Source of the DNA: Liolophura sinensis
Taxonomy: Eukaryota > Mollusca > Polyplacophora > Chitonida > Chitonidae
DNA: 64,000 nt
NCBI RefSeq assembly: GCF_032854445.1
Contig: NC_088301.1
Location: forward strand, 558,001-622,000
Direction of reading: 5' to 3'
Both the position numbers and the translations under genes were made by a program. The first letter of the stretch is position 1, and each line of letters starts with the position of its first letter. The notes under the pieces were generated by a model. It was given only the letters and a program-made list of their open reading frames with translations, had not been told where the DNA came from and searched no databases. Positions 20,512 through 56,200 of the stretch are shown piece after piece.

Positions 20512-23500
20512 ATGGCGTCCTTACATGACGCCTCGTTCTTCTGTATCCCGGAGACAGCTCTACCACACACAGAGCAAATAAACTACCGTCTTTTGTATTG
20601 TGTGATCAGCCTGTGTTCAGGCTTTTTGGGCATGTTTGGCTCCTGCTATCAACTGTTCGCCTGGAAACAAAAGATGACAGAGTGGCCAAGGCGGCGGTCC
20701 AGTCGGCCAACTACAAACCCGGAGATCATTTTCTATTTGGCCGCATCAAACCTCATGTCTTGTCTGGGTAAGAACTGTGAACTACAAAAATCTGTTGTCC
20801 CAAGATTTAAAACCAAAACAAAATTGTGTCCATTTATACCTCATAAGCTTGTTACTATTCAGGCGCATGTGCAGGACCTGTTTGTCCCAGACCCAGATGA
20901 CTGCAGCCGCCATGATGGTATATGGATTTAACACTGTACTGTTTAACACGGCTTCCACCACTTCCTCACCCTTGTCGGATGTCTGGAGATCATCTTTAAT
21001 GTTCTAAATTTAAACTCATAAACACATTACATAAAATATCTACTTAGTATTTTATGAATAAATTAATATCCTTTTCAAATACATCTACTTTTTATATATT
21101 TGTGTATTTGCCCTTGTACATACACGCTAGATAAACTCTGATGTACCCTTAACTCCTCAAGCTTTTCGCATATAAAAGAGCAACTTCTAGTGCAATTTAC
21201 GCACATTTTTAATTTGACAAAACTACATTGGTTGGATTGGCCAATTTCAGGGCCTGAAAAAAAAAAACAATTTTATCAGTCAGCACAGAATAATGCCTTC
21301 AGAACACGCTTGAATAAACACCCTACACACAAGCGGTAAGGTTGAAGAATTACAATAATGTGATGTGCAGCTCATAGCCTCGACTACAGGGCTTTTAGGC
21401 TTTGAGGCATTAGTGTTGTATATATGCAATCATTTACCGAGGCGTGATCCAGCACGTCTGTCTGCGGCCTGTTACCGGCAGGGCCACATGTCCGTGACCT
21501 AGGACAATCTACCTGGTATATAGCCCCATGACACTGACGCGGCAGGTTTTACTGTCTGAATTCATTCAATATTATCGTGTTTTTGGCCTCTGACTATAAT
21601 ATTGTACATACATTTATCTACGAGGCCATAATTTTGGCCTTACACAGACACAAGTCTGGGATGAAACGTTTTAACCTCTCTTTGTTTTTAATTTAAACAT
21701 TTTCATTAAAACCTACCTACATTCTGTGTTCAACATATATACCCACGAAAATCGCTGCGCACACCTGTAAACTGATATCATCTCTATCGTTTATTCAGCG
21801 TACGTGTTACATTTGCTTATCAAACAAGTTTTGAGACTTGAGAAATCGGGCCTATATCAGGTTTCGAATTTTGTTTTGTTTTGTGTTATTTTTTTGCCAA
21901 TCCTTTTCCAAAGGTACGTTGCAATACCAATACAGCTTTATCCATGTGTAACAAAGTTATTTTACATTGGAGAGGTCGCGTTTATTCAGAATGCGCAGAA
22001 TAGCACAATATAACTACCGGGCTATATTTCAGTACACATATCGATGAAAGCCCAGTCAGGTCGTCCGCACAATATGGATGACGTGCCCATAGAGTGGGGT
22101 TGGGACCGTGTATGGTACGATGTTTCAAAGTGATGAGACGACATGAACGCCGTTTCGCAACGTTGCCGCTCAAATTCGTAATCCGTGAATGAGTTCCAGG
22201 TCAAATAACAACTAAACAAGTATCTCAGTCGCGCTTTGATTGCAACTGTTCATAAAGGCATCATGCTGAGGCCTTTTACCATTTGAATGCAAATGTTCTT
22301 GCACCCAGTCATTTGGCTTGATGCGTGATGTCAGCTAGTGTTCTTCCGTCGAGGGGGCGGCTCTAGAGCCCCTTGGCTCCTTCATAGAAGCGGAATAGAA
22401 GGCATTTAAACTATTATCTTAGTTTTGCCGTTATTGCAACAAACAATGTGCTCTCGCGTAGAATCCTATGGATTGTATGAAATGGAGCGCAGAGCTGTTA
22501 CCATGCTACAGCGAGTTAATTTCTGTCATGACTTTTATGATTTACGAAAGCTCTTTAACTGAGCTAACTCACTAGCCTTGCTAAAGTCAATGGTAAAGTC
22601 TCTTCACTTCTGATATCACCTGAGAAAAGCAGGGTATAATCACCTCTGTCTGGCACACCGTTACCAAGGATACCGAGGGACTGAGTCTGCTAGTATGTGT
22701 CAGGAAGAGTGATGTCTCTTGTGCCGTTTTACATTATGTATGTTTACACAATTGTTTGTCACAGCGCAATAAATCAAAAGAAAGATAATAATAAATTAAT
22801 GAGCTAATCAATCCCGATTCACGATGCAGGTGCGTTGAAAGTCTTATTGAAATTAAGTACCAGTAAACAGTACGCGTGGCAAATGTAACCTCTAGTGAAA
22901 TATTATTTCAATAAGGGTTGGCATTGCAATGCTTATTCAAATAATTATGGTAGCGTCAAATGAAATTATTGTAAGTGTAACGCTTATTGAAACAATTACT
23001 TCAATAGAGGTAATTTGTTTCAATAAGAGATGCAACTCAGGCGTGATAATCAGTCAGTTCATCAATCCGGTTTCACGAAGCAGGTGTGATAGTCAATTGG
23101 TTGATCAGTACCGCTTCACGTTGCAGGTGTGATAATCAGTTAGCTGATCAGTGCCGCTACATGTTACAGGTGTGATAATCTGTTAGTTGATCAGTATCGC
23201 TTCACGCTGCAGGTGTGATAATCAATTAATTGATCAGTGCCACTTCACGTTGTAGCTTTGATAACTAATTATCTGATCAGTGCCACTACGTTTTACAGGG
23301 GTGATAATCAGTTAGTTGATCAGTACCGCTTCGTGTTTCAGGTGTGATAATCAATAAGCTGATGAGTACGGTTTCACATTTTTACGTTTAATTTGTGATA
23401 ATCAATTAGTTGATCATTACCGCTTCACGTTGCAGGTGTGATAACCAATTAGCTGATCAGTACGGTTTCACATTTTTATGTTTAATCTGTGATAATCAAT

Positions 23501-26500
23501 TAGTTGATCATTACCGCTTCACGTTGCAGGTGTGATAACCAATTAGCTGATCAGTGCCGCTACGTGTTACAATTAGTTGATCACTGCCGATTCACGTTGC
23601 AAGTGTGACAATCACTTAGCTGGTCAGTACCGTTTCACCTTTCTATCTTTCAGGTGTGATAGTCAGGTAGTTGATCAGTACCATTTTACGTTGCCGGTGT
23701 GATAACCAATTAGCTGATCAGTACCATTTCACATTGCAGTTGTGATAGTCAGTTAGTTGATCAGTACCATTTCACGTTGCAGTTGTGATAGTCAGTTAGT
23801 TAATCAGTACCGCTTCACACTGCAGTTGTGATAGTCAGTTAGTTGATCAGTACCGTTTCACGTTGCAGTTGTGATAGTCAGTTAGTTGATCAGTACCGTT
23901 TCACATTGCAGTTGTGATAGTCAGTTAGTTGATCAGGACCGTTTCACGTTGCAGTTGTGATAGTCAGTTAGTTGATCAGTACTGCTTCACATTGCAGTTG
24001 TGATAGTCAGTTAGTTGATCAGTACCGTTTCACATTGCAGTTGTGATAGTCAGTTAGTTGATCAGTACCGTTTCATATTGCAGTTGTGATAGTCAGTTAG
24101 TTGATCAGTACCGGTTCACGTTGCAGTTGTGATAGTCAGTTAGTTGTTCAGTACCTTTTCACGTTGCCGGTGTGATAACCAATTAGCTGATCAGTACCAT
24201 TTCACATTGCAGTTGTGATAGTCACTTAGTTGATCAGTACTGCTTCACATTGCAGTTGTGATAGTCAGTTAGTTGATCAGGACCGCTTCACATTGCAGTT
24301 GTGATAGTCAGTTAGTTGATCAGTACCGTTTCACATTGCAGTTGTGATAGTCAGTTAGTTGATCAGTACCGTTTCACATTGCAGTTGTGATAGTCAGTTA
24401 GTTGATCAGTACCGTTTCACATTGCAGTTGTGATAGTCAGTTAGTTGATCAGTACCGCTTCACATTGCAGTTGTAATAGTCAGTTAGTTGATCAGTACCG
24501 CTTCACATTGCAGTTGTGATAGTCAGTTAGTTGATTAGTACCGTTTCACGTTGCAGTTGTGATAGTCAGTTAGTTGATCAGTACCGCTTCACATTGCAGT
24601 TGTGATAGTCAGTTAGTTGATCAGTACCATTTCACATTGCAGTTGTGATAGTCAGTTAGTTGATCAGTACCGTTTCACTTTGCAGTTGTGATAGTCAGTT
24701 AGTTGATTAGTACCATTTCACATTGCAGTTGTGATAGTCAGTTAGTTGATCAGTACCATTTCACATTGCAGTTGTGATAGTCAGTTAGTTGATCAGTACC
24801 GGTTCACGTTGCAGTTGTGATAGTCAGTTAGTTGATCAGTACCGTTTCACATTGCAGTTGTGATAGTCAGTTAGTTGATCAGTACCGTTTCACGTTGCAG
24901 TTGTGATAGTCAGTTAGTTGATCAGTACCGCTTCACATTGCAGTTGTGATAGTCAGTTAGTTGATCAGTACCATTTCACATTGCAGTTGTGATAGTCAGT
25001 TAGTTGATCAGTACCGTTTCACATTGCAGTTGTGATAGTCAGTTAGTTGATCAATACCGCTTCACATTGCAGTTGTGATAGTCAGTTAGTTGATCAGTAC
25101 CATTTCACATTGCAGTTGTGATAGTCACTTAGTTGATCAGTACCGCTTCACATTGCAGTTGTGATAGTCAGTTAGTTGATCAGTACCGTTTCACATTGCA
25201 GTTGTGATAGTCAGTTAGTTGATTAGTACCATTTCACATTGCAGGTGTGATAGTCAGTTAGTTGATCAATACCGCTTCACATTGCAGTTGTGATAGTCAG
25301 TTAGTTGATCAGTACCGTTTCACGTTGCAGTTGTGATGGTCAGTTAGTTGATCAGTACCGCTTCACATTGCAGTTGTGATAGTCAGTTAGTTGATCAATA
25401 CCGCTTCACGTTGCAGTTGTGATCGTCAGTTAGTTGATCAGTACCGTTTCACATTGCAGTTGTGATCGTCAGTTAGTTGATCAGTACCGCTTCACATTGC
25501 AGGTGTGATAATCCGTTCCATGGCGATGTTGTTGACTAAAGCCCCTCATGTTAGTAGTGTATGGGTGAACATCACCAACACGTCCTGGTACGAGATCTAT
25601 TCCAACAATAAGTGTGACAACCAGGCCATACCCCACGGGGAGAAGAACGTGTTCATCTGGGGTAGCATCGTCGAGGTAAGCACCTACATGAACAGTATCA
25701 CCCATGCCATTCTCCGATATTGTTCTCTTGTTCTACGTATGAAATCATTAGTCTTTGATCTGCTTGATGCTGCTCTTCTAGCATCGATGTAGTCAGGAGT
25801 TCATGGGCTTACTTCCACAAAAGTTTTGTTCTAAATCACGCATTACAAATGGCATTTTAACTCATGCATCTATCCTTAAGGAACTAGTGAATTCTAAATA
25901 AAGAAAGGCCGAGGGGGAAAGGCTGCACAGATTTTACCAATATTCCTAGACAAAGCGGAAGGTCGCTGTCGCAATCATATAAAGTATGCATGCCGTTTGT
26001 TACCCCCGGGGTTATGGGAGTGGGTGGGGGGTGTGGCGAGGGTTAAGGGGTTGATTATTTGATTGTTGCTGAAAACCCTTATACTCACTTATTAAAGAGA
26101 TAGCTCAGTCAGTAAATGGCATGCGTCATATGTATATGGGGGAATGTCACGTTGATATGTATGTATGCATGTATGTTTAGGGTTTAACGTTGCACTTAAC
26201 AATTTGTCAGTAATAAGACGACGAGGAGTCATAAGGGGTGTGTACTTATACTGCGTCTCTTATCCCAGTCCTGCCGCCATTGAAGTAGCATGCCGAAGAC
26301 ACCAGACATGGCATCCCACCCAGTCACTTTATTCACCTGGCCAACCAATCCTGTTGACTTGCTCTAACCTCTCAGTGCTGAGCGCCAAGCCAGGCGGCAA
26401 CATGTACCATTTCTTTGAGATGACCCGACCCGCACGGGTTTGATCCCGGGTCTCCCGGCTTCGAGGCGGACGCTCTGACAATTAGGCTACCGGAGCGGCT

Positions 26501-29500
26501 CCCACCTTTATTCGTATTAACCTTGAAACTTGTCATTTGTTTTATATTCAGGCTTTCACACAATTCAGCTTTGGGGCCTCCGTCATCTGGACATTCCTCT
26601 ATTCCGTTGACACATACTCTCAGCTTGTCGGCTTCCACATGTAGGTATATATTCACTTGTACTACGCATTCCACGTGTAGGTATATCCACTTGTACTACG
26701 CATTTACACATTTACATCGGCTTTCACATATGCACATGTACTGTGCATCGACACATTTACATCGTCTTCCACATGTAGGTATATTCACTTGTACTACGCA
26801 TTTAAACATTTACATCGCCTTCCACATGTAGGTACATTCACTTGTACTACGCATTCACACATTTACATCGGCTTCCACATGTAGATATATTCACTTGTAC
26901 TACGCATTCACACATTTACATCGTCTTCCACATGTAGATATATTCACTTGTACTACGCATTTACAAATTTACATCGGCTTTCATATGTAGATATATTCAC
27001 TTGTATTACGCATCAACACATTTACATCGGCTTCCACATGTAGATATATTCACTTGTATTACGCATCCACGCATTTACATCGGCTTCCACATGTAGATAT
27101 ATTCACTTGTATTACGCATCCACACATTTACATCTATATTCTATATGATCTGCATATCATAGATACTTAGACATTATAGACTAGAATCTGGCTTGTTCAT
27201 TATGAACCGTTGTATAGCCAGTGAAGTGGCGTGTTCAAATCCAGCTCTCGCTTTATAAATTGATGGCCAAAAGAAACTTTACCACTTATAAATTAAAACT
27301 TAACAAACATTTTCAGCAAATTCGGTCCAAGAATATTCCTATATGGGGAAGGCTACATGTAAGCCCATACCAATTCGTTGCAACAGAGAGAGAAAAGTTC
27401 TAAAACCATGTGACTAGTGGACGGGCCGAAACCGCAAGGTCAAAAAGTGTATGAAACGTTAAAGTCAGTATGTCAAACTTGCACGGTGTTTACGAAACAC
27501 GGTAGTGATGCCACGACTGACTCTTGAACAACGCGAGAGGGCCCTGGGTACGGTGGCTATGAGAGCCACTCATGCTAACATTGCAAGAACTTTTGGTTGC
27601 CCTCGTGTAACCGTTACAAATCTGATGCAGCGTTACAGGCAGACAGGACGGACCTCAGACAGGCCAAGAACAGGCAGACCCAGGGTAACCACGCCCAGGG
27701 AAAACCGGTACCTTCGAAAGCATCTGCGAAATTGCTTCCTGACTGTGACGTCATCATCGCTGAATGCATTAGATCATCTGTTCAGTCAGCAGAGTCAAGG
27801 AGATTCTGGGATCACGGAATCCGGGCTTATCGACCATTCAGAGGGCAGTTATTGACGGCCCAAAATCGTCGTCAGAGGTTGAGGTGCGCACTAATTTTAC
27901 GACGTTGGCTGCGACGTGATTGGCAACGGGTCGTCTCCACAGATGAAAGCCGCTTCTGTCTGTTCAGAGCTGATGGAATTCAGTTTGCGTTCAGGAGGTG
28001 GTACCGTATAGTGGTGGGAGAGTGATGGTGTGGGGAGCGATTTGTGGACAGAAACGGACACCACTGGTCATCATGGCTGGGAACAGCTCTGTGTTACGTG
28101 GATGACATTTTACGTCCGATTCTTCTGCCCTTCCCTCGCCAGAATCCACGTGGTGTCTACAAGCATGACAACGCCAGCAGTCCATAAAGCTCAAGTCGTG
28201 CAGAACTTCCTTGACGCCAACGTCTTACCATGGCCTGCACGTTCCCCAGACATGTCTCATATAGAGCACCTCTGGGACGCCCTGGGTCACCGCGTAAGAC
28301 AACGAGCACAGGCTCTTGACGAAGAATGGCATGTATCCCACGTAACATCATCAGACGACTGACTTTTTCTATGCATCGGAGAATTTTTGCATGCGTAGAA
28401 GCAAGGGACAAGGTACTGATGAGGCGACTTTATCCAACTGAACAACTCACCCGATTGGTTATCAAACTGAAATGTCGATTTTTTTTTTACCCCAACCCCA
28501 GTTGGGCACATGTGATGGCTGTATGGGCTGATGTACATTTCCTTACTTTGGACGTGGATGACCTAACATATTGTTGTTTTCAATATATTACATTTCCAGC
28601 ATCTGTTGTTTTGTGTTGTTTCAACGTGTTTCTCGAGAGTTGTATGGTCATGTGGAACAGGTGACTTTAGTTTAGTTTATAAGAATAAGTTTTCTTCAGG
28701 TATGGGGCTCTCGCTTCACCAAAAGATCATTGTTCCCACCCTTAACCAACGGGGTCGGCTGCTGCCTTCAGTCAGGGGGTTGCTCACGTAGCTGGGGAAG
28801 AGCGGTGGTTTATATCGGGCATACTGTATAGCAGTATGGCATAAGCTTCACCGCAGACTAAGCGCAAAGTTCCCGAGACAAAGCTGAACGTATAAATACA
28901 TAAATGTACATATATATTAAACATTAAACTACTAATAAACAACTAATATTAACAGTCGCCTTACCTTCAGCAAAACTGAACGACTGAACAACCGTGGTGG
29001 GTCCCACGGTTAACTTAATACAGTGAGAGCTGGAGGAGCTCAAGGTGAAGGCCTCACCTTTCCATTGGCCTCTGTAGGACCCCGCCAACAAAAGTGTCTC
29101 AGGGGCTAAAGGTTGAATCAATGACCATGGCTTAAAGCCAGTGAGTTTGACGTGTATGTGGAGGTTTTGGTGACCAGTAGATGCCGCCTCGACGTTTCTC
29201 CAGCATACAGTGGTGCATCGTCTCATATGTTGTGAGCAAATGTTACGAGCGGAACACACCTCGCTGGTGGCTAACGGCATACATGTACTTCATCCAAAAG
29301 AACACACCATGAAAACTATGGTAATGACTGATTAGCTGGATGTAAGATCTATTTATATCTTGTGTGTTCCCAGTTCCAGTAAAGCCTATCACAGTATCAG
29401 CTGGGTGTTGGCGGGTGTGATGGCAATAGGATCCCAACTCTCTGTATCCATCGGCCTCACTCCACCTTACAGGTAACCCTCACAAACTTACACATTTTAA

Positions 29501-32233: not shown

Positions 32234-34289
32234 TATTAAACTGATAAAGAACTGTATTTATACATGTATATCAGGCTATAAATGATATTTTAAGAGGTAC
32301 TTAATGTTTAGTGGTGAGGTCAGACCTAAAACAAATTTTTGTATTTTATAAAATCTATGTAGACCGTGAACACGTGTCTGGACGAAATGCTATACGGTTA
32401 ACACTATTCAATAATCAAAGTCAAGCCGATTGCCTTGATTCCCTCTGGATGGCTGCGATCAACAGTCAAGCATGGGTTAGGCCGGCAGGGTCTGTGGACG
32501 TAAAATTCAATGATAGTGAAGTTGCTTTCTATTAAATCTCAGAAAGAGAAAGCTGCCTCTTTTTGTTACATTTTGTTTTAGATTTTCAATTTGAGCATAT
32601 TTTCGTGTTCTAACAATAGGTTGACGTAAGCTAGCGTTTGCCTGGTAGACATTGTATGTATGCGTACTTGTGCTACTTGTAAACATCTGTATCGTAGCCA
32701 TACACAATGCACTGACTGATCTAAATACCGCAGTATAAGCTACCCACAATTAGGGAATATATAGCAGTTTCCAGTCAACCTGGATATTGTGTGTGGGACT
32801 GTTAAATGAGCAATAGCACGTTTCGCATGCTTGGAGGAATATATATGAGTGTACTCCTACGGTTATAGGCCTATATACACGGTCTGAATAGTGCATGGGA
32901 TGTTGCATTTACATGTATATTAAATATTTTGCTAACTAAGTGCATGTGTAGGCCTCGTATACACATAGGCCTATATGTTTATGGCCCTTATGTTTACCAT
33001 GGCTGAATCTGTGTCTATATGTAGGCCTATGTACAAATGACAGGGAGAAATCAATGTTCGATGACATTTATAGCTATTATGGACATGCAGTGTATGCAAC
33101 TATTTTTCTGTTTAATACACTTATGAATCAAATACGGTCATGTTAACATTTGTTTTCTAATTCGCACAACTGAAGTCATCTATGCTTGTGCTGTCAGCCT
33201 TAGTATAAATTGTGGGGTTCATTTTAGTTTTTCCAGAATAAGATGAATTGATATACTTCATGTAAAACACGTATTAATGCGTTAAATGGAGATTATGTTT
33301 TAACATTTCAATCTCCGTCACTTTCTAAAATATTCAAACAGGTACACTTAAAACATTAATCTGTTCATGTTAAAGTGAACATAAAGTCTGTCGCTATATA
33401 AACATAAAAAACTGATATAGGACATAGTTATCACAGAAAACTATGTAAAAAATTGTATAAAGTTTTGAATGCCGAGAAGATAACGTTCAGCATTGGGGAT
33501 ATAGCACTGACGGACAATTCACTCCGAGTAGCCATGTTGTAGAAGCCCTTTTAAACTGGGCCAATCACTAGCGCTGAAAGCGTCACGTGATAATTGGCTG
33601 TCGCGTCAAAAAAAGCTATTAGCTGTCGATTGTCAGTGTGGTTTGTTACAAGTGTATAGACAGATTTCGATGCAATAAATTGGATTTTGCGGTTAGTATA
33701 AGTGTTAAACTGAAGCATTTTGACAACACATGTACGAACAGGGAAATGAGAAGGGCTGCCCATTTCACAATGCGTACATGTTGGACAGGATGCTGCAGTA
33801 ACTTCTCGGGATCAGCTGGCCAGAAAACCATCTCGCGAGTCATTGTTTGAAGAAAAATGTTGTGACTGTGCGTTATTTTTCCTTAGCAAAGTTAGATTAA
33901 TTACGAAAATATCTTCCCAAAATCTGAATAAAAGAGTCTGTTATCAATCAGAAGGTCCTGCTATGTTCGGTAAAATCCCACGCAGGACGAGGACCGCTAA
34001 AACACGACGCTTTTGTCACAAATATCGCCCTGACCGAGCGCCAACTAAAAGAATCATAGGCCCTCTGGACACGGAACAGAGCTGATACTCTTTGGTCGAG
34101 TATTACGCGTTGTTGTTTGCATTTTCTCATTGTCACATTGTTCAATACTTGTGGTACGGGGGAGCGCCTAGGTTTTGTGACCTCACTCCAATAGCTTTAA
34201 AATGGCAAAATGGCGTCACCAAACGAGTGGTTAGGTACTGATGAATTTTTTGCTATTTATTTTGTTGATAAGCTGAGAAGAATTTGGCT
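32234..34289. other. GPR143 3' flank and intergenic DNA, nothing recognised
   Basis: ATTAAA at about 32235 lies too close to the stop to be a confident poly(A) signal. Frequent TAGGCCTA motifs around 32.9-33.0 kb. No gene supported. Confidence 0.5.
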
Positions 34290-36450: not shown

Positions 36451-36460
36451 CCACCTGACC

Positions 36461-37075: not shown

Positions 37076-37151
37076 TTCCAGGAACGCCGTCATAACAGCC
37101 CAAATTAATGATTGACTAATTTACCAAATTGATGAAGTATTTCATTTTGAA

Positions 37152-40100
37152 ATGGAAATAGACGAGGACCACGTGAAAACACTTTTGGCGATGGGATTCC
37201 CCAGCGTGGAAGATGTGCGTAAAGCTCTCCGCTTGGGAAAGAACGATTTAAATGAAGCCGTGGCTATTTTGACAAACGAGCACCCAAGTTCATCGTATGA
37301 TACTGTGGACGAATTGGACGTGGAAATGAAAGACGTTCATTATCAGCCGAGCTCGGTGACAATTCAGTTGCCAGTGTACGGACCGTCCCTTCCGCCAAGT
37401 TACGACGAGGCTGTGGAGACCGAGGTAAGCACTTCCAAAAGAAGACTTGTACATTAAGAGCTAGGTCGAAGTGACCATTGACCTAATGTTGCCCTGCCTG
37501 GCTCCTAAAACTACACTGACCTTTTCACCAGTTGCAGCACCAACTTTGCACGCCCCAGAGCCGTCTGAAATGAGTCTGTGTGCCGATTACTACACTCAAT
37601 ATTGCTACAGGACTTGTCAGGTCAATGCCGTACAAGTTGACCTATTTTTTTTCAGTGCCATTAAGTAACCCATTTAGCACATGACGTGCAGCTATGTACT
37701 GTGGTCAACTCTCAGTTGTTACCTGCTGCTAAGTGTTTTTATGTAACATTTAAATATCTCAATTACTCTTGTTTGTCCGAGGTTAAAGTTTCACAATGTG
37801 TTTAGTCAGGCCTAACTAATTAGCTTTGACATAATAATATGTTGATAACTGGAAACAATTAGCACTGTCACTGTATCGGTTTTCACAGTGTTTCTGTTAG
37901 CTTTTCAGCGCCCTTTCTTGGGCTGGTGTTATGTTTACTTAGCAGTTGTTATTATTATGAAGCTTGTTAGTACTGATTCGTTAACTGAGTTATGTATGTT
38001 TGGATAAGGGTATGTTGAAATTTCTTCATGTATATATTATCTAGTCCTATATATATCTATGTGTTTGTTGGTGTACCATAGCATTTTCCATTTGATTTTG
38101 TGTTTTCCACTGTGTACTGTTTATATTTATAGATTTACAGTCATTGAACTCTTAAGATTTTAATATTTAGGTTTTTTATTTACATAGCCTTTACCTGTAT
38201 TAATTAGGACAAATTCATAAATTATATATATTATAAATCTATAAACTAGATTAAACTACTTTTTTTTTACTTTAATTACATGCTCACACTGCCTTTTAAC
38301 AGAGTGGTAATTAACATGTTATAGTGATGGGCAAGACAAAAAAAGGAAAGAAACTGTATGATGGAAAGTTATTGATCTTTATGAAATGTTGTCAGAGTTA
38401 TATTATGACTATTATGACTAGGTTTCTTAAAAATCAGAATTTGAAAAGAGCTGCTGGTAGTGGGGACAACTCAGTTAAAGCCAGTTTTATCAGAATAATT
38501 TCTTCGTTGCAATTTCTGTAAGTGAGACAAAATAGAATTGAGCACTCTATTGAATCGTGCTTGCTCTCAAAGAGTTGCCCAGTGACAGTCATTTGGCATT
38601 ATGTATGATTAACTTTAGATATATAAGTCGGAGAGCTTAGAAACTAAACTAAGAATAAACTATATGATTAATAGACAAATAACCTTAAAATGGGAAAAAA
38701 TTTAGATTTGACGTTAATTTTGACATGTAGAATCTTCAGGCCAGTGAAAATGCCTTGAGTAGGTGAGGAAACCAAACAGTGGGAGGGGTGGGATGGGAGG
38801 CTTGGTTGGGAATTGTGAGACAGAGGAGAAATCATTAATCACTGATACGATTAGATCATTGTAGTCAGCATGTGGTACATGTAGTATGTAGCATGTAATC
38901 CTGCATGAGACAAGCGATATCTGTCCCCATTCAGGTTGGTCACACATCACCAGTTGTCCAGTTGAATGATTAGGGTTTTACTGTGACATTGGTAGTATTT
39001 CAGGTGCTTTGTAGTGAGAATATTAGTAGCAGGAAAACACAGGTTTTCTTCACATGAGAATGTTTAGACCCAAAATCAGAACATACCAGAAACAGAATTT
39101 TTTTATACCTGGTAATACAAACTAAGTTGAAGTTCTAAGATCACATTCAACTTTAGCATTTGCGTGCAAAGCTGTCAAACCATGGAGCGGACTAGTGGCC
39201 ATGGCCCTATCGCGGATGCTGCGAGGATGTTATACTGTCCTCTGTCTTTCTGTTTACTGAGCCCACACTGGAGAGCCCTGGGTTTGTTACCATTCACATT
39301 AAGTTTACAGTATACCGAGGGCTGAACTCCTCACATCACTTTCACAAAGCTTTGTTCATCGGTAACCTTGATGACGTCCTTTACAGAAAAATTTAAGAGA
39401 AATATGATATATGAAGCTGATGTCAAAGTCATAGATAACTACCCATCCCAAGAAATCAACTTGGGACAGTGTTTCAGATGTATATCAAAATTTTATGTGT
39501 TCGCATATTCTGAATCTCAACTTTTTTTTAAATCTTCCTTTTTGAAGTCTTATATACATGAGTTTGTTGACTTGATGCTGCTGATCATAGAGGAAAATTG
39601 AGCCTGGGTCTAATAAACTTGCCAAGATCAACCAGCAACTGTACCATTTTTGTGGATAGTAATGGACAGGAGGCAGTTTTACAAACTGTGTAAAACATAT
39701 TTACATGAACAGATAATACTGCAATCATTAGGTTACCATGGTAGTCACTTGGCCCGCATGATAATTAATATATGTGCTTTGTTAAACTGGCTACTCATTG
39801 TGCTCAGTGTAATGCATTTATATACCAAATACATGTAGTAAAGCCAGCATGTATGTATTTAGGTGAAAGCTTTCCTGTTTAACAGTATTACATATTACAT
39901 TATATTTAAACTGCAGAGGAACAACTTGGCTGATGGATTAAGCCTTGTTCAGGGTCCGAATAGCCCTTGTAACAATGCTGTGTGTTAGAATCGCCTCCTG
40001 ATATGTCAGCTGTACATAGCTTTAAATGTGTCTGGAGCTTTAGGATTGTTGTGGGACACGAATTCATCCAGATATATGATGGGCTTGTTACTGTTCCCAG

Positions 40101-43100: not shown

Positions 43101-46100
43101 GCACAGTTTTATGAAGCTCGCATCTTTAGTGACACAGATAAATCATTTTGGAGTCATTTTTATTGGAATTGTATAAATAAATTCCAGTGAAAAAAGTGCT
43201 TTAGAGGTCGAAAATGTTGACGATTTACAGTATATAAATAAATGTAAGTTCTCTTGTGAGTCTGGCATTTCGTACTACAAATCCATCCTTCCCATTGTTT
43301 ATGATTTCAGGACCCATATGGCTGGTTGTCGAACCTTATCAATAGGGTAAGCATTGTGTGCTTTATCTTTACTGGGTTACATCGTGAGTGATACATAGTG
43401 TTACGTAGTGATACATAGTTTTACATAATGTTACATAGTGATACATAGTGTTATATAGTGAAATATACCTGTAACATAGAAGAGTTAATGTTGAGAAATG
43501 CTGTGAAAGGTTATTAGGACCTCGACTTCAAAGCTTGAAACATTGATATACATGTATGTTTTACACAATGAAATATTCCTTGCTGTGGTTTACACAGTTA
43601 CATGTATGTGTTTCTTACCATGTCTTAAACATTCACTTTGGTTTTCAGTTTGGTCAGAAAGGAGGGTTTACTTTAGTCCAGAAATTCCTGGAAACTGAGA
43701 ATCTGGATGCACCAGTAAGTTAATAGCCATGTTATGTTTACGATGTTTATTTTTTCTCTGTCTTCTTGACGCTGTTTCAGGCACTGTGATGTGTTGTTTG
43801 ATTATTTCCATCTGGGTTTTCATAAGATTGACTTTCTTTCCATGTAACAGCTGTATAAGCAAGCACATGTAAATTTAAACCAGAAGAAAAACGTTTAGCA
43901 AGTGATCTTATGTGTGAGACCACTTACCCTTAATCAGTGAAGTGAGTGTGGCTCCCTCTGCTTGAGTGCTAGGCTCATCCTCAGCTGACTGGTACATCGC
44001 GCATCTCTGGTCTCCTACATCATGTCATATACCTTGTCTGGACAATATCATTGCTAAAAACTTAATGTAGATATGTACACACTGTGAGAAAGCTCTGTCA
44101 TATACTGTGGTCAGATAAAGTATAAAATATGTCTTAAATTTACACTTGGTGATGTGGTTGAGAGTGACCTTTGACCTTGTATTTGTAGGCCATGGCAGCT
44201 TTACTGCGTCCGTTTGGAGTGTCTGCTGAGTACTTAAACTTCTCTGTTGTGGAGAAACTGCTGACTCCTGGAATGGAGAGAGCGATCAAGTATGTGCAGA
44301 GTCTGGAGGAGAAGGACTTCAAAGAGAAGGTATGGTGCCGGCTGGGTGTGGTGTCAGTGGTCTGGTGCAGGCTGGGTGTGGTGTCAGTGGTCTGGTGCAG
44401 GCTGGGTATGGTGTCAGTGTTCTGGTGCAGGCTGGGTGTGGTGTCAGTGTTCTGGTGCTGGCTGGGTGTGGTGTCAGTGTTCTGGTGCTGTCTGGGTGTG
44501 GTGTCAGTGCTCTGGTGCCTGCTAGGTGTGGTGTCAGTGTTCTGGTGCAGGCTGGGTGTGGTGTCAGTGTTCTGTTACTGGCTGGGTATGGTGTCAGTGT
44601 TCTGGTGGAGGCTAGGTGTGATGTCAGTGTTAGGTGTGGTGTCAGTGTTCCGGTGCTGGCAGGGTGTAGTGTCAGTGTTCTCGTGCCGGCTGGGTGTAGT
44701 GTCAGTGCTCTGGTGCTTGCTGGGTGTAGTGTCAGTGTTCTGGTGCCAGTGGGATGTAGTCTCAATGTTCTGGTGCAGGCTGGGTGTAGTGTAAGTGTTC
44801 TGGTGCCGGCTGGATGTAGTCTCAATGTTCTGGTGCCAACTGGGTGTAGTGCCAGTGTTCTGGTGCCGGCTGGTTGTGGTGTCAGTGCTCTGGTGCCAAG
44901 TCAGTGTAATGATGCTAGCTGGGTGGGTGTGAGGGTATGATGCTAGCTGAGTGGGATGTCTGGGTATGATGCTAGGCAGTAGGGGTGTCAGGGTATGATG
45001 TTAGTGTAATAGTTCTAGCTAGGTGGGGTGTCAGGGTAATGATGCTAGCTGGGTGGGATGTCCAGGTTTGTTGCTAGCTGGTAGGGGTGTCAGAGTAATG
45101 ATGCTAGCTGGGTGGGATGTCCAGGTATGTTGCTAGCTGGAAGGGTGTCAGGGTAATGATGCTAGCTGGGTGGGATGTCCAGGTTTGTTGCTAGCTGGAA
45201 GGGTGTCAGGGTAATGATGATAGCTGGGTGGGATGGGTGGGATGTCCAGGTATGTTGCTAGCTGGAAGGGTGTCAGGGTAATGATGCTAGCTGGGTGGGA
45301 TGTCCAGGTATGTTGCTTGGTGGTAGGGTGTCAGGGTAATGATGCTAGCTAGGTGGGATGTCCGGGTTTGTTGCTAGCTGGTAGGGGGGTCAGGGTAATG
45401 ATGCTGGCTGGGTGGGATGTCCAGGTATGTTGGTAGGGTGACAGGGTAATGATGCTAGCTGGGTGGGATGTCCAGGTATGTTGCTAGCTGGAAGGGTGTC
45501 AGGGTAATGATGCTAGCTAGGTGGGATGTCCGGGTATGTTGCTAGCTGGGTAGGGTGTCAGGGTAATGATGCTAGCTGGGTGGGATGTATGGGTAATGAT
45601 GCTAGCTGGGTGGGATGTTCAGGTATGTTGCTAGCTGGAAGGGTGTCAGGGTAATGATGCTAGCTGGATGGGATGTCCAGGTATGTTGCTAGCTGGTAGG
45701 GTGTCAGGGTATGATGCCAGCTGTGTGGGATGTATGGGTATGTTGCTAGCAGGTAGGGGTGTCAGGGTATGGTGGGTGTCAATGTATGATGTCAGTGTAA
45801 TGTTGTTAGCTGGTCAGGGTGTCCGGGTATGATGTTAGTGTAATGGTGTTATCTGGGTGTGGTGACATCGAAGCTATGGTGTCAGGATAATGGTATAGCT
45901 GGGTGTGCCACTGTTGTGACATAGACGGTATGGTGTCAGGATAATGATATAGCTGGGTGTGGTGTCAGGGTATGGTGTCAGGATAATGGTGCTATCTGGG
46001 TGTGGTGTCAGGGTATGGTGTCAGTGTAATGGTGTTATCTGGGTGTGGTCACATAGAAGGTATGGTGTCAGGATACACAGTTTGTGACTGCTTGGTATAA

Positions 46101-47158
46101 ACAGGCCCGATTAGCATTTCAACCAGTGATATGGCTGCATTATCACTGATCCTCTATTAATAGTTATTCAGTATAAACAAACAAGTGTCATATGTTGAAT
46201 GTTGTAGGTGTTAATAGTAAATGTGCCTTTTTGTCAGATTTAGGATTTTTACTTTCTTTTTATGATTCTCACTTACCATGTGTCCTTATACAAGAGGTAT
46301 TCATGCCTACACTTATGTATTTATCTATTTTGTCAGTGGGTGGTTGATACACGTGCTCTGATGATGTGGCAAATCACTGTTGTCATATATGTGTACACTC
46401 TGATGGTAGATGCGATTACATCAAAATAATCATATCTGAATAATGGATAGCTCTGTTGATGCTGTAAATTACAGGATACCTACCCTATCATGAAACTGAA
46501 TGGTAGCTTAGCAAAGGAAAGTCACTCTGGGCTATTGTAATGCTGCCAGTAGGATATCGTGAAGTTTTACAGAATCACTCAATGCTCAGTACAACTGTGT
46601 AGCGACTCATATTTCTGTGCTTGTTCCCCCTGTGTTGTGTTGCAGAAAGTGGGCAGCGTGAGCGACCTCCTGGCCTCTATGAAGCTCCTATGTCTGAATA
46701 TGCTACCAAATGATGTGGACTCGATAGATGAGCTACGGCTGAACATCGCCCTGCGCATGCTCAAGTCCCCCCACTTCAATGCTAAAATGAACTCTCTGAA
46801 AGAGGTAAGAGATACGGGGCCTTCATGATGCACTGTTATTATCAGATTTATTCTTGAGTTGGCATAAAACACCAATAATATAAATAAATAAATAAATAAA
46901 TATGATTTTGAAATACTAAGGATAAAATTTATGGTGTTTACATGTCTGATTTTGATTAGAATCATTTTACTGTGTTAAAAACCCATCTCTGATTAAGTAA
47001 ATGCAGATCTGTTCCTCACAGTAAAGTCCTTTGTATGTCGTGACAGATAATGTCCGAAAAATTTACTTAAGAATGTGATGCTGACTGCATTTTAGTGGAA
47101 ATTGCAGTATATTACATGGCATTTTGGTATGGACGGGAGTGTATGTGTGCGAAAGGTA

Positions 47159-47191
<33 letters not shown>

Positions 47192-47208
47192 ACACCCACA
47201 CACACGCG

Positions 47209-47246
<38 letters not shown>

Positions 47247-50200
47247 TGTACTGTATGTATAATGATATAGGAGAGTTCAGCTAATTTTAAAGATTCCAAA
47301 TCAACCGTCCACTATATATCTCTCTATGACCAGCTGGCATTGTTGAAAACGTAGCTGCACCAGCCTGGCTAACTTGAGTAACACGTCTCCCCATTCCATT
47401 CCTTTAGGTGACAAAGTTGATAGAGGACAGCACCGGCAGTAAAGTCCCCAAGACAGCCATCGGAATGGAGAAAATCTTGGAGTGGCTTGTGGACAACCGG
47501 CTGTTATCCATAGCCCTGGAGGGTAACATAGACCAGGCCCAGTACTGTGATAAAATAAAGGGCATAGTGGACTTCCTTGGGGCAAAGCTGTCTCTGGATG
47601 AACTCACCATGATCTGGAAGATGCAGGTACACATGGAATGTTATATAAAGCCACCTCTGTTTTGAGTAAACAGGTGTCCAAACTGGAAAATGCTTCAATG
47701 TACACGCACGTTACTACCTGCATATGTAACATGGTGGCAGACTTAAAAATGTTTTAGTGTGGCATAAAACTGTTGTCCAGGACATGATGGCAAACCCAGC
47801 AAGTGAAGATTCCACACAGTCAGTCAGCCCTGTGTAAACTGCATGTATAACCCCGTTTTCTGATGTGAAAGATGTTTAGGTAACAAATAAAAGTAATGCA
47901 TTATAGTAATACACTTTATTGCTCTACAGTTAGATTTGGTTTGGTCATAAAAGGATATGGTTTCTACCACAGACAATGGTAGCAAATTTAACAATGCTTC
48001 TGGAGTCTCCAGTTGCTTTTTGCCCAGTTTATACCATCTCATAAAAGATGCCCTATTTCTCATGTTGGGTATTACGGAGGATAGTTTGTTTGAAATTTCT
48101 CTCTCTATTCACAACTTTATTTTGCTTGTTTCAGAATGGCCAGACAAACAATGTGATAGACAACATACACTCAATAGTGGCCGCTGCAGCGGTTAAGTTT
48201 GATGCTCAGCAGTTAGAACACCTTTTTCTTCTCATACAAAAGGTGAGTGGCAGTGGGTGTATGTGTAATGTGGCAGTTGTGGGTGACGTTGTAGTATTCA
48301 GCTGGTCCATATATTGTATTGTTTGTTCGAGTTTTGTGCCCTCTTTTGGCTTGAAACATGGCTGTAAATTCAGAGATCATGAGGAGTTCAGTAAGGTGAG
48401 GAACTTGAACAGACGAACAGCACCTGTAGTTTAGATGAACCACATCTCCATGATGGGCAAATGATGCTTTTGGTTGCACAAAGAACATCTTTAGGAGAGA
48501 CAAGGCACATCCAAGATTCGCAAGCTATGACTTTAGGTTATACAAACAACACCTCAAGGATAAGAATAATACCAATACTCAAACAAGCAACACCCCTATA
48601 ACAGCATCACTTGTTTAGGCAAACAACACCACTGGGACAGCATGTCTAGATTAAGCAAACAACACCACTAAAACAGCATCGCCAGATTAGGCAAGCAAAA
48701 CCACTAAAACAGCATCACCAGATTAGGCAAGCAACACCACTAAAACAGCATCACCAGATTAGGCAAGCAACACCACTAAAACAGCATCGCTAGATTAGGC
48801 AAGCAACACCACTAAAACAGCATCCCTAGATTAGGCAAGCAACACCACTAGCACGGCATTGCTAGATTAGGCAAACAACACCACCAGAACAGCATGCCTA
48901 GATTAGGCAAGCAACACCACTAAAACAGCATCGGTAGATTAGGCAAACAACACCACCAGAACAGCATTCCTAGATTAGGCAGGCAACACCACAAGAACAG
49001 CATTGCTAGATTAGGCAAGCACACCACTAAAACAGCATCCCTAGATTAGGCAAGCAAAACCACTAGCACAGCATTGCTAGATTAGGCAAACAACAACACC
49101 AGAACAGCATGCCTAGATTAGGCAAGCAACACCACTAAAACAGCATCGGTAGAATAAGCAAGCAAAACAACTAGAACAGCATTCCTAGATTAGGTAAACA
49201 ACACCAATAGAGCAGCATCGCTAGATTAGGCAAACAACACCGCCAGGACAGCATGCCTAGATTAGGCAAACAACACGACTAGAGCAGCATTACTGGATTA
49301 GGCAACCAAAATCTTTAACTATTAAGCCATAATCAACTAAAGTAAGACTGACAGTAATGTTTTTCATCCTTTATAATTCCTGTCATGATTTATGATTTTT
49401 TTTGTTTTGCACAGAATTGGCAGGAAGATAACGATCGTATGAGGGAGAAGCTGCTGGCTTTAATCGGGAAGATTGGGCGCGACGCTCGTGTCTCAAAGAC
49501 AACCACCAGAGTAAGTGTTATATGGACTCTAGGTCTTGTACGTCCACTGCTGTCAGCTAACACTGAAATGTAACCTATTAAACAAGTACATTGATTTAGG
49601 AATGGTGTGTATATTTTTTTGCTCTTATGCTTGGGTACATGTGTATGTAGCGCACACTGGAACCTGGCACATCTACCTGTCCTCTCTGCATACCTTATGT
49701 ACTCATCTGTATGGTGTGTTGTTTTTACAGGCATTGGAGTTGCTGTGGGACATGTCACATCTACCTGTCCTCTCTGCATACCTGATGTACTCATCTGTAT
49801 GGCATGTTGTTACAGGTATTGGAGTTACTGTGGGACCTGTCACATATACCTGTCCTCTCTACATACCTGATGTACTCACCTTTATGGTGTTTTGGTGGTG
49901 GTGTTACAGGTTTTGGAGTTACTGTGGGACATGTCATATCTACATGTCCTCTCTACATACCTGTTATACTCACCTGTATGGTGTGTTGTTGTTACAGGTA
50001 TTGGAGTTAATGTGGGACCTGTCACATCTACCTGTATCGCTGTATGCCTGATGTACTCACCTGTATGATGTTGTTATTACAGGTATTGGAGTTACTCTCT
50101 ACACGCCTGATGTACTCACCTTTATGGTGCATTGTTATTACAGGTATTGGAGTTACTGTGGGACCTGTGACATCTACCTGTTTTCTCTACACACCTGATG

Positions 50201-53200
50201 TACTCATCTGTATGGTGTATTGTCATTACAGGTATTGGAGTTACTGTGGGACCTGTCACATCTACCTGTCCTCTCTGCATACCTGATGTATTCATCTGTA
50301 TGGTGTGTTGTTGTTGCTGCAGGTATTGGGGTTACTGTGGGACCTGTCACATCTATCTGTCCTCTCTGCATACCTGATGTACTCATCTGTATGGTGTGTT
50401 GTTGTTGCAGGTATTGGAGTTACTGTGGGACCTGTCACATCTATCTGTCCTCTCAACACACCTGATGTACTCATCTGTATGGTGTATTGTTATTACAGGT
50501 ATTGGGGTTACTGTGGGACCTGTCACATCTACCTGTCCTCTCTACACACCTGATGTACTCATCTGTATGGTGTGTTGTTATTACAGGTATTGGAGTTACT
50601 GTGGGACCTGTCACATCTATCTGTCCTCTCAACACACCTGATGTACTCATCTGTATGGTGTGTTGTTGTTACGGGTATTGGAGTTACTGTGGGACCTGTC
50701 ACATCTACCTGTCCTCTCTACACCCCTGATGTACTCACCTTTATGGTGTATTGTTATTACAGGTATTGGAGTTACTGTGGGACCTGTCACATCTACCTGT
50801 CCTCTCTACACACCTGATGGAGCAGGCCCTGGATGAACACCTGGCCATCCTCAGTGACTCCTACATTGTCAAGGAGCAGGTGAAGCGCCAGTATGTTGTC
50901 AAGTGTGTGGAAGACATCAAAAAGGTAAATGTAAGTTCTGTGTGATACGATAAGGTTTGATGTCAACTTTGTTTATGATTCAGAGATAATATTTGTCTAA
51001 TGGGTGGGTTATGGCTGTTTGGTTTAAGATGCTCAGCCTGTCATTCAGTCTGGTGGTGTTGGCTGAGAGGCAGCCTCAGATGGGGAAGTTTTACGATTCA
51101 TCTACCTCCACTGGTCTCAGGGGGTTTCGGCAATAAGCAGTCAGCAGGAGCTCTTACACAAATCTTTCAGCTCTCGCTGTGGCTGGAAATCTGTGTATCC
51201 AATGTGATAAAGTTCATCAGTTATTTATCAAAGGCTGGTGGTTTACTGTGGGTATTGGGGATTTCCTCTTCGCATTAAAAATTTGTGAATTGGGGTGTTA
51301 AAATAAATTTTTAGGCCATTTGCCCACTGATAACGTTTACATTTTTCTGTATGAAAGTGTAATGTTTGTACAGTTTATACTTTTTGCTGGTGATACTATT
51401 GTCAGGTGATAGTAATGGCACATTTTCAGCTGATAGTAATGGCACATTTTCAGGTGATAGTAATGGCACATTTTCAGGTGATAGTAATGGCACATTTTCA
51501 GGTGATAGTAATGGCACATTTTCAGCTGATAGTAATGGCACATTTTCAGGTGATAGTAATGGCACATTTTCAGCTGATAGTAATGGCACTGTGGTATTCT
51601 GTACTTGTGGTCATATAAATGTAGTTGTATAACATGCTAAATTTTAAATCTCTGGAGAAGTGGAACAGATGCTGTCTTACCTTTGAACACAACTCCAGCT
51701 CACAGGTGATGGTAAAGTACCTGTAATTCACCTGTTGTTGTGGTATAGTACACCTGCGGAGGTTAATGAAGTAGTTATACTGTGGTCTACTTTACTTGCA
51801 GGGTGTCTGGGTATTACCAGCTATCAAACAGATGCTGCACATCAGCAAGAACATCCTCAAACAGACATTCCCCAAAACTGACAAGGTATCCTCAGCAGCT
51901 GATTTAATACTGCTTTATGGTTTTGGTACAGAATCTTGATTTCAAAGCATCCCATAGTTTCAGTATCTTGATGACATTTATGCTAACGAAGATATTAAAC
52001 AAACATGCTTAAATTTTTTGTGCATTTTAAATAAATTTGCTTCAAATTAGAAATGAATTTTTCATTTGGTCTGGGGCATTTTTAAATGACTTTTTATAAA
52101 ATGTTGATATTTGTGGGAGCGTTGGGGGCTACATCTATAAATATTATGAATTCTCTTCATCTTTTCAGTCCTCTCAGTATTCATTGCACTGTTTCTCATC
52201 TGTTTCAGGGAATTTTACATGAATTAAACAAAAACTTTGATTTGATCAAATTGATCACAAACAGTTTGGTGAAGTGTCACAAGACAGCAACGACAGCTCA
52301 GCCAGGGAAGCTGATCTCCCCAGAGACTATCGTGGACAGTAGATACACCCATGCTGATGTGAGTAAGATCACAGGGGGTGGGAGAGGGAAGACAAGCACA
52401 GTGCGCGTCTTGTTACACACATGCTGATGTGAGTAAGATCACAGGGGGTGGGAGAGGGAAGACAAGCACAGTGCGTGTCTTGTTACACACATGCTGATGT
52501 CAGTGAGCTCATGGGGGGTGGGATAGGGAAGACAAGAACAGTACGTGTCTTGTTACACAAATGCCGATGTGTGTAAGATCACGGGGTGGGAGAGGGAAGA
52601 CAAGCATGGTAAGCGTTTTGTTACACACATGCTGATGTGAGTGGGGTCAGAGAGAATGAGATGGGGAAGAAAAGCATGGTACACATCTCGTTACACTCAT
52701 GCCGGTGTCAGGTTGCAGAGGGTGGGATAGGGAAAACAAGCATGGTACACATCTTGTTACACTCATGGCGGTGTCAGTGAGGTCACGGAGGGTGGGATAT
52801 GGAAGACAAGTGTGGTATGAGTCTTGTTACACACATGCCGGTGACAGTGAGGTCACGGAGGGTGGGATATGGAAGACAAGTGTGGTATGAGTCTTGTTAC
52901 ACACATGCCAATGTCAGTGAGGTCTCGGAGCGTGGGATAGGGAAGACAAGTGTGGTACGAGTCTTGTTACACACATGCCAGTGTCAGTGAGGTCACGGAG
53001 CGTGGGATAGGGAAGACAAGTGTGGTACGAGTCTTGTTACACACATGCCAGTGTCATTGAGGTCAGGGAGGGTGGGATAGGGAAGACAAGTGTCGTATGA
53101 GTCCTGTTACACACATGCCGGTGTCATTGAGGTCACAGAGGGTGGGATAGGGAAGACAAGTGTGGTACGAGTCTTGTTACACACATGCCGGTGTCATTAA

Positions 53201-56200
53201 GGTCAGGGAGGGTGAGATAGGGAAGACAAGTGTGGTATTAGCAGGCAGCGAAATTTGGCGCGAACGAAACCGTCGGTCGCGCAACGGTTACGTGCGTTTC
53301 AATTTGGCTAACCGAAAATCGGTTAGGCCAACTGTCCAACGAGAACGTCCTTAGAGTCAGTGTGCATTAGGTAACTACAGATAAACTGGACTGAACAGCT
53401 TTCATAATCACAACGCGGTTAGTATGGCAACGCGTCTAAGCCACTTCAGCCACAGCCAGCTGCCTATGCTGGTCACATGGAAATGTAATCATTCATATAT
53501 GCCTTACAGGCTTTGAGATAATACTCAAATTATTTATTTTGACTTATCTTTTCACGATCACGCAAGTAAATAAAACAAGGTTACCTTTTCATGTACATGT
53601 AGTTTAACTGCTACTCGAGCCCAAATTAGTCGAGTCTACCGTACAGATTGATGGAACCCTTACGGGACCTCACCGGCTGCGTTCTGATTTAGAGCACAGG
53701 CCTGTGACGCATAGGCCTGTGACGTCAAGGTCTCTCCCGGCCCTGTAGCGAGTATATATATATATATCACTGTGGTAAGACTCACACCACGTGCGTTGGA
53801 AACTGCGTTAATTATCAGTAATCAGGGATACCAAACTCGCTCCCCAATACCGTAATGACACTTACTGGAAGTACTTAATGTTGGACTGGGCATATTGCAA
53901 ACATATAAGCCTGTATAACGGAATTTCACGTAAAAATGTGCCACAGGAGTCAAGTACCAACCAGGCAACACACAACGTTGAAACACCGTGTGAGTGTAAA
54001 ATTTCTCTTTCTTTTGTTCACCAACCTTACGGTATGAGCTGCTAGATATAGAAAAGAAAAACAAACATAACATTGAGCTGAATACTTTTATTAATGATCC
54101 AGAATGATGCCTGAAACATAAACCACGTAAACAATTAGCGTAACCGATCGGGTTGATAAACATACGTGGCGTAACCGAATGATCGGTTAGGCGAGGCGGA
54201 ATAACCGATTTCTGGGTTTCGGCGGCAGGCCAAATTTCGCTGCCTGTATTAGTCTTGTTACACTCATGTCAGTGTCATTGAGGTCAGGGAGGGTGGGATA
54301 GGGAAGACAAGCACGTCTTGTTACAGATAAATTATGCTGCATGATTATGTCACTTTAACAAGAACCAGCAAAGATGTGACCTCCTTCTTCTCATGCTGAA
54401 CAGAGAAAACCAAGTGGAGGTAATTCAGGGGTTCTGACAGGGCTCTGAATGCACATTTTGTGTTAGTGAAAATACGTATTCTCTTATGTTCTGTGCACAG
54501 TTCATGGTTGTTCCATGTTCTCCCCACAGGTATGTGACTGACTGTTCCATGTTCTCCCACAGGTATGTGACTGACTGTCCCATGTTCTCACACAGGTATG
54601 TGACTGACTGTCCCATGTTCTCCCACAGGTATGTGACTGACTGTTCCATGTTCTCCCACAGGTATGTGACTGACTGTCCCATGTTCTCACACAGGTATGT
54701 GACTGACTGTCCCATGTTCTCCCACAGGTATGTGACTGACTGTTCCATGTTCTCCCACAGGTATGTGACTGACTGTCCCATGTTCTCCCACAGGTATGTG
54801 ACTGACTGTCCCATGTTCTCCTACAGGTATGTGACTGACTGTCCCATGTTCTCCCACAGGTATGTGACTGACTGTTCCATGTTCTCCCACAGGTATGTGA
54901 CTGACTGTCCCATGTTCTTCCCAATGTATGTGTTCACACACCTGACTGACTCTTCCATGCTCTTCCCACAGCATGTGTCAACACACCTGACTGACTGTTC
55001 CATGCTCTTCCCACAGCATGTGTCAACACACCTGACTGTTCCATGCTCTTCCCACAGCATGTGTCAACACACCTGACTGACTGTTCCATGCTCTTCCCAC
55101 AGCATGTGTCAACACACCTGACTGTTCCATGCTCTTCCCACAGAATGTTTTGACACACCTGACTGTTCCATGCTCTACCTACAGCATGTGTCAACACACC
55201 TGACTGACTGTTCCATGTTCTCCCACAGGTATGTGACTGACTGTCCCATGTTCTTCCCACAGTATGTGTTCACACACCTGACTGCCAGTTCCATGCTCTA
55301 CCTACAGCATGTGTCAACACACCTGACTGACTGTTCCATGCTCTTCCCACAGCATGTGTCAACACACCTGACTGTTCCATGCTCTTCCCACAGCATGTGT
55401 CAACACACCTGACTGACTGTTCCATGCTCTTCCCACAGCATGTGTCAACACACCTGACTGTTCCATGCTCTTCCCACAGCATGTGTCAACACACCTGACT
55501 GACTGTTCCATGTTCTCCCACAGGTATGTGACTGACTGTCCCATGTTCTTCCCACAGTATGTGTTCACACACCTGACTGCCAGTTCCATGCTCTACCTAC
55601 AGCATGTGTCAACACACCTGACTGACTGTTCCATGCTCTTACCACAGCATGTGTCAACACACCTGGCTGTTCCATGCTCTTCCCACAGCATGTGTCAACA
55701 CACCTGACTGACTGTTCCATGCTCTTCCCACAGCATGTGTCAACACACCTGACTGACTGTTCCATTCTCTACCTACTGTATGTTTTGACACACCTGACTC
55801 ATTTTTTTATGTTCTTCCCACAGTATGTGTCAACACACCTGACATTCCTACAGTATGTACTACAGGAGGGGGTGCTTTATCTGCCGTCTAACCGCGCTCG
55901 TGATATCTGGGGGGTTCTCGTGGCCAATCAGGACGCCTGTGACTGGGACAGGGAGGTAAGGCTGATTCTGCAGAATTGATATGGCACAGAACCTGACAAA
56001 GTGAGAAAATGTGACGTAAACAAATCTCGTGACATACAACTTTGGTAAAAATTTGACATAAACCAATCCTGTTGCATATTGTGACATTATCAGCCATGCT
56101 ATGACTGAAAGCAAATTAAGCATTAACAGTTTGTCCTCTTCCAAAAAGTGTATTAATTAACTATATGTGCAGTGAAACATGCTGCCTACATGTAGGTGTA

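Follow-up and report, generated by a model that had tools for sequence, protein, structure and literature searches.

Minisatellites built across splice junctions in conserved genes of the chiton Liolophura sinensis

Analysis of a 64,000-nucleotide stretch of the genome of the chiton Liolophura sinensis (scaffold_3:558001-622000, here called the window) revealed five minisatellites in two neighboring genes, GPR143 and USP24, each of which carries a splice junction of its host gene and repeats it. Together with arrays found elsewhere in USP24 and in further genes, 21 junction-spanning arrays were identified, 13 at donors and 8 at acceptors, and in held-out genes such arrays were more frequent than expected from randomly placed founder units. 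We consider it likely that these arrays are minisatellites of the type known from amphioxus as "mirages," which would have arisen by tandem duplication with random breakpoints, been tolerated at junctions, and expanded into the intron. The species was published as L. japonica and later corrected to L. sinensis (PMC12441733). All array and exon coordinates given below are window positions.

Arrays were called using Tandem Repeats Finder (TRF), leaving out arrays shorter than 70 bp or with units shorter than 10 bp. Exons were placed by tblastn with human protein sequences, followed by a custom splice-aware aligner, and the junctions are thus homology-based. An earlier note on this DNA, here named the original prediction, had proposed five arrays at splice junctions and a sixth beside one; its labels for the USP24 exons (8, 13, 15, and 16) are kept here. 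The six arrays are as follows.

23038..25517, plus strand: array of about 57 copies of a 43-bp unit, with the GPR143 exon 2 acceptor (between 25502 and 25503) at its right edge and 15 exonic bases (TRF)
26628..27134, plus strand: array of a 53-bp unit, with the GPR143 exon 3 donor (between 26640 and 26641) at its left edge and 13 exonic bases (TRF)
49658..50819, plus strand: array of an 88-bp unit, with the USP24 "exon 13" acceptor (between 50762 and 50763) and 57 exonic bases (TRF, spliced alignment)
52344..53237, plus strand: array of a 70-bp unit, with the USP24 "exon 15" donor (between 52358 and 52359) and 15 exonic bases (TRF, spliced alignment)
54509..55843, plus strand: compound array of 33- and 45-bp units, with the USP24 "exon 16" acceptor (between 55823 and 55824) and 20 exonic bases (TRF, spliced alignment)
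44333..44896, plus strand: sixth array, of a 30-bp unit, starting at the fourth intron base after the USP24 "exon 8" donor (between 44329 and 44330), without the junction (TRF, spliced alignment)

All five predicted junctions were recovered in the gene models; each falls within the array named for it and is itself part of the repeat. The exonic reach of 15, 13, 57, 15, and 20 bases agrees with the 13 to 57 exon bases per unit that had been claimed, and the sixth array excludes its junction, as had been described. Two of the arrays needed adjustment: the TRF start of the GPR143 exon 3 array (26633) was stretched by eye by 5 bases to 26628, and two TRF rows were merged to give the array at 49658-50819. 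The junction word of the GPR143 exon 2 array recurs in 56 other copies, with AG intact in 51, and the exon 3 array has 10 other junction copies, 8 of them with an intact GT. The corresponding numbers for the USP24 arrays are 12 copies with 10 intact AG (49658-50819), 11 with 10 intact GT (52344-53237), and 34 with 32 intact AG (54509-55843). Two units, those of the GPR143 exon 2 array and of the USP24 array at 54509-55843, were searched against the whole assembly (609,464,459 bases in 632 contigs) and gave 28 and 5 pattern matches, respectively, all inside their own arrays; although such a search can miss matches, this is consistent with birth in place.

The same modelling was applied to six CCT chaperonin genes, an SLC22-like gene, PKA, and part of CABLES, while a receptor tyrosine kinase gene was read by eye. 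Junction-spanning arrays were found in 8 of the 11 modelled genes and in the receptor tyrosine kinase gene; CCT8, CCT7, and CCT4 have none. USP24 carries six more of them outside the window, at donors 70036, 79676, and 94927 and at acceptors 82370, 86547, and 99270. The left edge of one of these, array 70039-70550, was moved out by 4 bases, because the donor and two exonic bases are repeated. Three donor-spanning arrays are present in SLC22, whose intron 1 is only roughly delimited and may contain unrecognized exons, two in CCT3, and one each in PKA, CCT5, and CCT6, while CABLES and the receptor tyrosine kinase gene have one acceptor-spanning array each. Twenty candidates were scored for a repeated boundary and 18, in seven genes, passed; those at 44333 and 57479 were dropped, and the single CCT6 and two CCT3 arrays were added. 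The TRF call at 57479..57552 (plus strand), beside the USP24 acceptor at 57545, was rejected because its junction is not repeated, the underlying run of 11-mers stopping at 57533. Unit lengths of the scored spanning arrays range from 22 to 147 bp.

To judge these counts against chance, founder units of the observed lengths were placed at random in the un-expanded (collapsed) gene, with wholly exonic founders excluded; in a stricter null model, each founder was placed only within the intron that it occupies. The comparison used held-out genes, namely, USP24 beyond the window, SLC22, PKA, and the six CCT genes, with 103 introns and 36 arrays. The CCT genes were six of nine intron-bearing loci, picked before their arrays were seen (the loci on C1 at 48.4 Mb, C3, and C11 were left out). 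GPR143 stood outside this test, as did CABLES and the receptor tyrosine kinase gene, because the latter two had been noticed through their arrays. In the held-out genes, a junction is contained in 14 of the 36 arrays, compared to 4.8 expected from founders placed gene-wide (P = 7e-5) and 7.3 expected under the within-intron null (P = 0.002). The predicted excess over random placement, including placement within introns, was thus observed in these genes. A naive null model, with the arrays as they stand in today's introns, gives smaller P values; we preferred the collapsed and within-intron models because the naive one counts intron space that the arrays themselves have grown.

Broken down by gene and with gene-wide founders, 6 of 20 arrays span a junction in USP24 outside the window (3.0 expected; P = 0.06), 4 of 8 in SLC22 and PKA (0.47 expected; P = 0.0005), and 4 of 8 in the CCT genes (1.4 expected; P = 0.03), the last of these falling to P = 0.13 under the within-intron null (2.2 expected). 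In an earlier pooled version of the held-out count, which took in CABLES and four of the CCT genes, 12 of 35 arrays were spanning, with 4.6 expected. Both GPR143 arrays are spanning, with 0.14 expected on approximate introns. The USP24 part of the window is not decisive alone, as 3 of its 16 arrays span a junction and 0.9 to 1.7 would be expected to; the original statement that randomly placed arrays would rarely include a junction even once was therefore too strong. For USP24 alone, the placement null also depends on the overhang allowed, with no clear excess at 60 to 90 bp (P = 0.09 and 0.33) and P = 0.0004 at 20 bp. Overall, the excess of junction-spanning arrays over random founders is probably real and about 2-3 fold, as judged from 36 arrays with homology-based junctions.

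The position of the exon-side ends bears on where duplication begins. Exonic reach varies from 2 to 97 bases and is below one unit in all 21 spanning arrays; divided by unit length, it takes values between 0.04 and 0.91 that are consistent with a uniform distribution (Kolmogorov-Smirnov [KS] P = 0.37 for 18 arrays and again 0.37 for 17), with two of the edges set by eye. Only 1 of 18 exon-side ends is 4 bases or less from the junction. Because these ends are spread over the unit and not gathered at the junction, duplication does not appear to begin at the splice site, as the original prediction had suggested, and a splice-site-exact start is disfavoured. Its proposed trigger, AGGT-type microhomology, fared no better: when eight words were counted in the consensus sequences of 101 units, AGGT was present in 38, compared to 41.3 ± 3.9 in shuffled sequences, and was not enriched. 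Units are also longer in spanning arrays than in arrays that lie entirely within introns (median 67 versus 34; P = 0.001; 18 versus 34 arrays), as predicted if random spanning is biased by length. The expected spread of copies into the intron was found, the arrays extending on the intron side.

These features fit a simple course of events. In a repeat-rich genome, short segments would be tandemly duplicated at breakpoints independent of the splice site, and a founder segment would now and then straddle an exon-intron boundary by chance. Such a duplication would do almost no harm: the coding bases and a working splice site would still come from the copy attached to the exon, and the remaining copies would lie in the intron, where splicing would presumably pass over them as usual. 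Later unequal exchange or slippage could then expand the array into the intron, and the array would stay anchored at the exon because selection acts on the coding copy.

Several observations weigh against this account. Random founders alone predict 4.8 or 7.3 spanning arrays where 14 were found, and this gap closes only if the intronic space at founding was at most about half of today's collapsed size (a founding space of 0.6 gives 8.0 expected, P = 0.013; 0.5 gives 9.6, P = 0.06; and 0.4 gives 12.0, P = 0.28). Donors account for most of the held-out spanning arrays (11 of 14; P = 0.057), and wholly intronic arrays lean slightly toward intron ends (KS P = 0.02; 34 arrays). Two further words are mildly raised in the unit consensuses, CAGG (46 of 101 versus 38.2 ± 3.6 in shuffles) and AGGTA (24 of 101 versus 15.5 ± 3.3), i.e., 2 to 2.6 standard deviations above shuffles, perhaps partly due to the junction arrays being among the 101 units. 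The residual 2-3 fold excess and the donor lean are not explained by random founders alone. It is possible, and we put this forward only tentatively, that founders form 2 to 3 times more commonly across boundaries, chiefly at 5' splice sites, in a donor zone made unstable by, e.g., R-loops or polymerase pausing, with breakpoints scattered over some 100 bases. If so, splicing-linked DNA instability would keep seeding decoy donors and mini-exons genome-wide.

A hot spot proper, in which AGGT-type microhomology or transcription- or splicing-linked breaks near donors favor duplication at splice junctions or close to them, seems unlikely to us. It would account for the held-out excess, for the donor lean, and for the raised AGGTA and CAGG counts, and 18 of 51 arrays have a 5' edge between -110 and +30 relative to a donor, compared to 6 of 51 with a 3' edge at an acceptor. 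The broad spread of exon-side ends and the ordinary frequency of AGGT argue against it, and clustering near junctions is slight among wholly intronic arrays (of 34, 5 lie within 30 bp versus 3.5 expected, and 9 within 60 bp versus 7.0 expected).

As the original prediction had anticipated, the arrays are an abundant source of decoy splice sites. Of the 278 other copies, 228 retain the splice dinucleotide, showing that decoys are not purged. Such conservation, together with the finding that 9 of 12 decoys in the USP24 array at 49658-50819 keep a full open frame of 22 codons, could suggest that the arrays are kept for a function, be it splicing fidelity, suppression of early polyadenylation via U1 binding, or provision of alternative exons. 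Donor decoys are no better kept than neighboring bases would predict (89 of 118 intact versus 88.0 expected). Acceptor decoys do exceed expectation (139 of 160 versus 114.0), which is no clean sign of selection because the reference is the exon-bound copy, itself under coding constraint. Furthermore, unit length is a multiple of 3 in 8 of the 21 spanning arrays by hand count, as by chance, and we regard a retained function as improbable.

Individual arrays can nevertheless resemble coding sequence. The decoy copies in the USP24 array at 49658-50819 look like 66-bp in-frame mini-exons, and in seven of the nine with an open frame, a GTATGG pseudo-donor follows. In the SLC22-like gene, the first copies of the 66-bp unit in a donor array at window coordinates -2380 to -1682 form one open frame that repeats a membrane-helix piece, and a gene predictor could take this array for a long exon.

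The exons on which the junction assignments in the window rest are the following.

20512..20767, plus strand: GPR143 exon 1, coding sequence from the ATG (read from the sequence)
25503..25675, plus strand: GPR143 exon 2, whose first 15 bases are part of the 43-bp-unit array
26552..26640, plus strand: GPR143 exon 3, whose join to exon 4 (29374) is phase-consistent and open
50763..50924, plus strand: USP24 exon starting inside the 88-bp-unit array (VLELLWDLSHLPVLSTHLMEQALDEHLAILSDSYIVKEQVKRQYVVKCVEDIKK; spliced alignment to human USP24)
55824..55955, plus strand: USP24 exon starting inside the 33/45-bp-unit array (YVSTHLTFLQYVLQEGVLYLPSNRARDIWGVLVANQDACDWDRE; spliced alignment)

By spliced alignment to the human protein, USP24 runs from 37161 to about 108476, past the end of the window. 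The first intron was left out, and the stretch from 37320 to 40100 is poorly modelled. For GPR143, the joined reading frame of exons 1 to 4 is open with consistent phases. An exon-by-exon genome search with PF02101 (Ocular_alb) returned none of the GPR143 exons in the window at E ≤ 1 and gave just one weak hit, on a different contig; the joined piece had no match among solved structures at E ≤ 1; and two scripts seeking the later exons did not obtain a complete seven-exon join. An artefact of gene modelling, TRF, or assembly is nonetheless extremely unlikely: the placement of exons by homology to human proteins, the gaps in GPR143, the false TRF call at 57479-57552, and the two edges adjusted by eye could point to one, but all 50 USP24 introns kept are GT...AG without exception (nine being simplified outer intervals around uncertain small exons), the modelled stretches of the CCT genes align to their human orthologues, joined GPR143 exons 1 to 5 match PF02101 with an E value of 2.7e-12, and the listed arrays are at most 4.4 kb long in a HiFi assembly with mean reads of 8.3 kb.

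Minisatellites are frequent in this part of the genome. The window holds 76 TRF rows, and 137 merged arrays make up 31% of the 264 kb around it (C7:458001-722000). Minisatellites make up 54% and 39% of two 6-kb samples taken 0.5 Mb from the ends of other scaffolds. The six CCT loci lie in scaffold interiors and have about 10% array cover overall (hand sum). A purely subtelomeric array density, in line with the 0 to 16% cover at the first four of these loci, is weakened by the CCT3 locus, at about 30%; the remaining locus has about 13%. The repeat table of the assembly paper gives 0.08% "other (simple repeat, microsatellite, RNA)" and 14.04% unclassified, with minisatellites unnamed there (PMC11068029), and the main text of a comparative chiton paper does not contain the terms "minisatellite" or "tandem repeat" (PMC12005716).

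Further elements were observed in the window. The USP24 70-bp array is followed by a 1,005-bp element (53242-54246) whose terminal inverted repeats are perfect over 18 bp (CAGGCAGCGAAATTTGGC) and which has TATTAG on either side; no second exact copy of its terminal repeat word was found within the surrounding 264 kb. GPR143 intron 3 contains open frames at 27490-28362, which we take to resemble a Tc1/mariner-type transposase. A 41-bp unit is present at 17600-17887 in seven copies with 100% identity, which abut a 28-bp array without a gap; the unit has what we presume to be a tRNA A-box-like word and is possibly SINE derived.

Splice signals are also duplicated in other known systems. Intron gain by tandem duplication, as in the potato RdRp gene (PMC4974935), shares this feature with the chiton arrays. 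As outlined there, a new intron arises in the Rogers-type model from duplication of an AGGT segment within an exon and, in the potato case, from duplication of a unit made up of intron and exon. In the chiton, in contrast, the intron already exists, units are part exonic and part intronic, and the extra copies are intronic filler; none of the verified units is an AGGT-bearing exonic segment duplicated into a new intron. Also related are human internal tandem repeats in segmental duplications, for which De Grassi and Ciccarelli (2009; PMC2812944) report 27 intron modifications. Both cases concern minisatellites at exon-intron boundaries. The human repeats described there alter intron structure in recently duplicated primate paralogues and are retained in or spliced from exons, whereas the chiton arrays sit in conserved genes whose authentic junction is kept.

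The closest likeness is to amphioxus mirages, described in PMC3087553 and PMC3902484 as tandem repeats across exon-intron boundaries and proposed there to give rise to cryptic sites and to new introns, so the original claim that no system of this form had been described does not hold. They are known from Adh3 (first reported by Canestro in 2002, as cited in PMC3087553), the globin genes BflGb6 and BflGb9, PGBD5, and TnC; they show copy-number polymorphism, also somatic, and concerted evolution inside the array that leaves out the edge copies, and reverse transcription-PCR suggested normal splicing (PMC3087553). No report of mirages outside amphioxus or of chiton minisatellites was among the matches listed for the open-licence literature, with subscription papers outside this scope and one pine paper using the word "mirages" left aside.

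From the DNA of one assembly, the chiton arrays can be likened to mirages on four sequence features. First, the unit crosses the boundary and the boundary is repeated (18 of 20 chiton candidates plus three further arrays). Second, both 5' and 3' boundaries are involved. Third, many but not all copies keep AG or GT. Fourth, the unit lengths fall within the 10 to 160 bp reported for mirages. In addition, the array occupies the intron in both systems, and a single authentic copy is attached to the exon. The chiton arrays differ in that the host is a mollusc and not a cephalochordate and in that their frequency was measured against a null model, which supplies a testable figure for how often arrays straddle junctions. 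Their decoy copies, which may hold open frames and intact splice sites, are a warning to gene predictors, and the arrays offer a natural test of how the spliceosome chooses among dozens of near-identical sites and of whether arrays seed new exons or introns. Mirages, known from a few amphioxus genes, would thus now be found in another phylum and in ordinary conserved genes such as USP24, the CCT chaperonins, and PKA.

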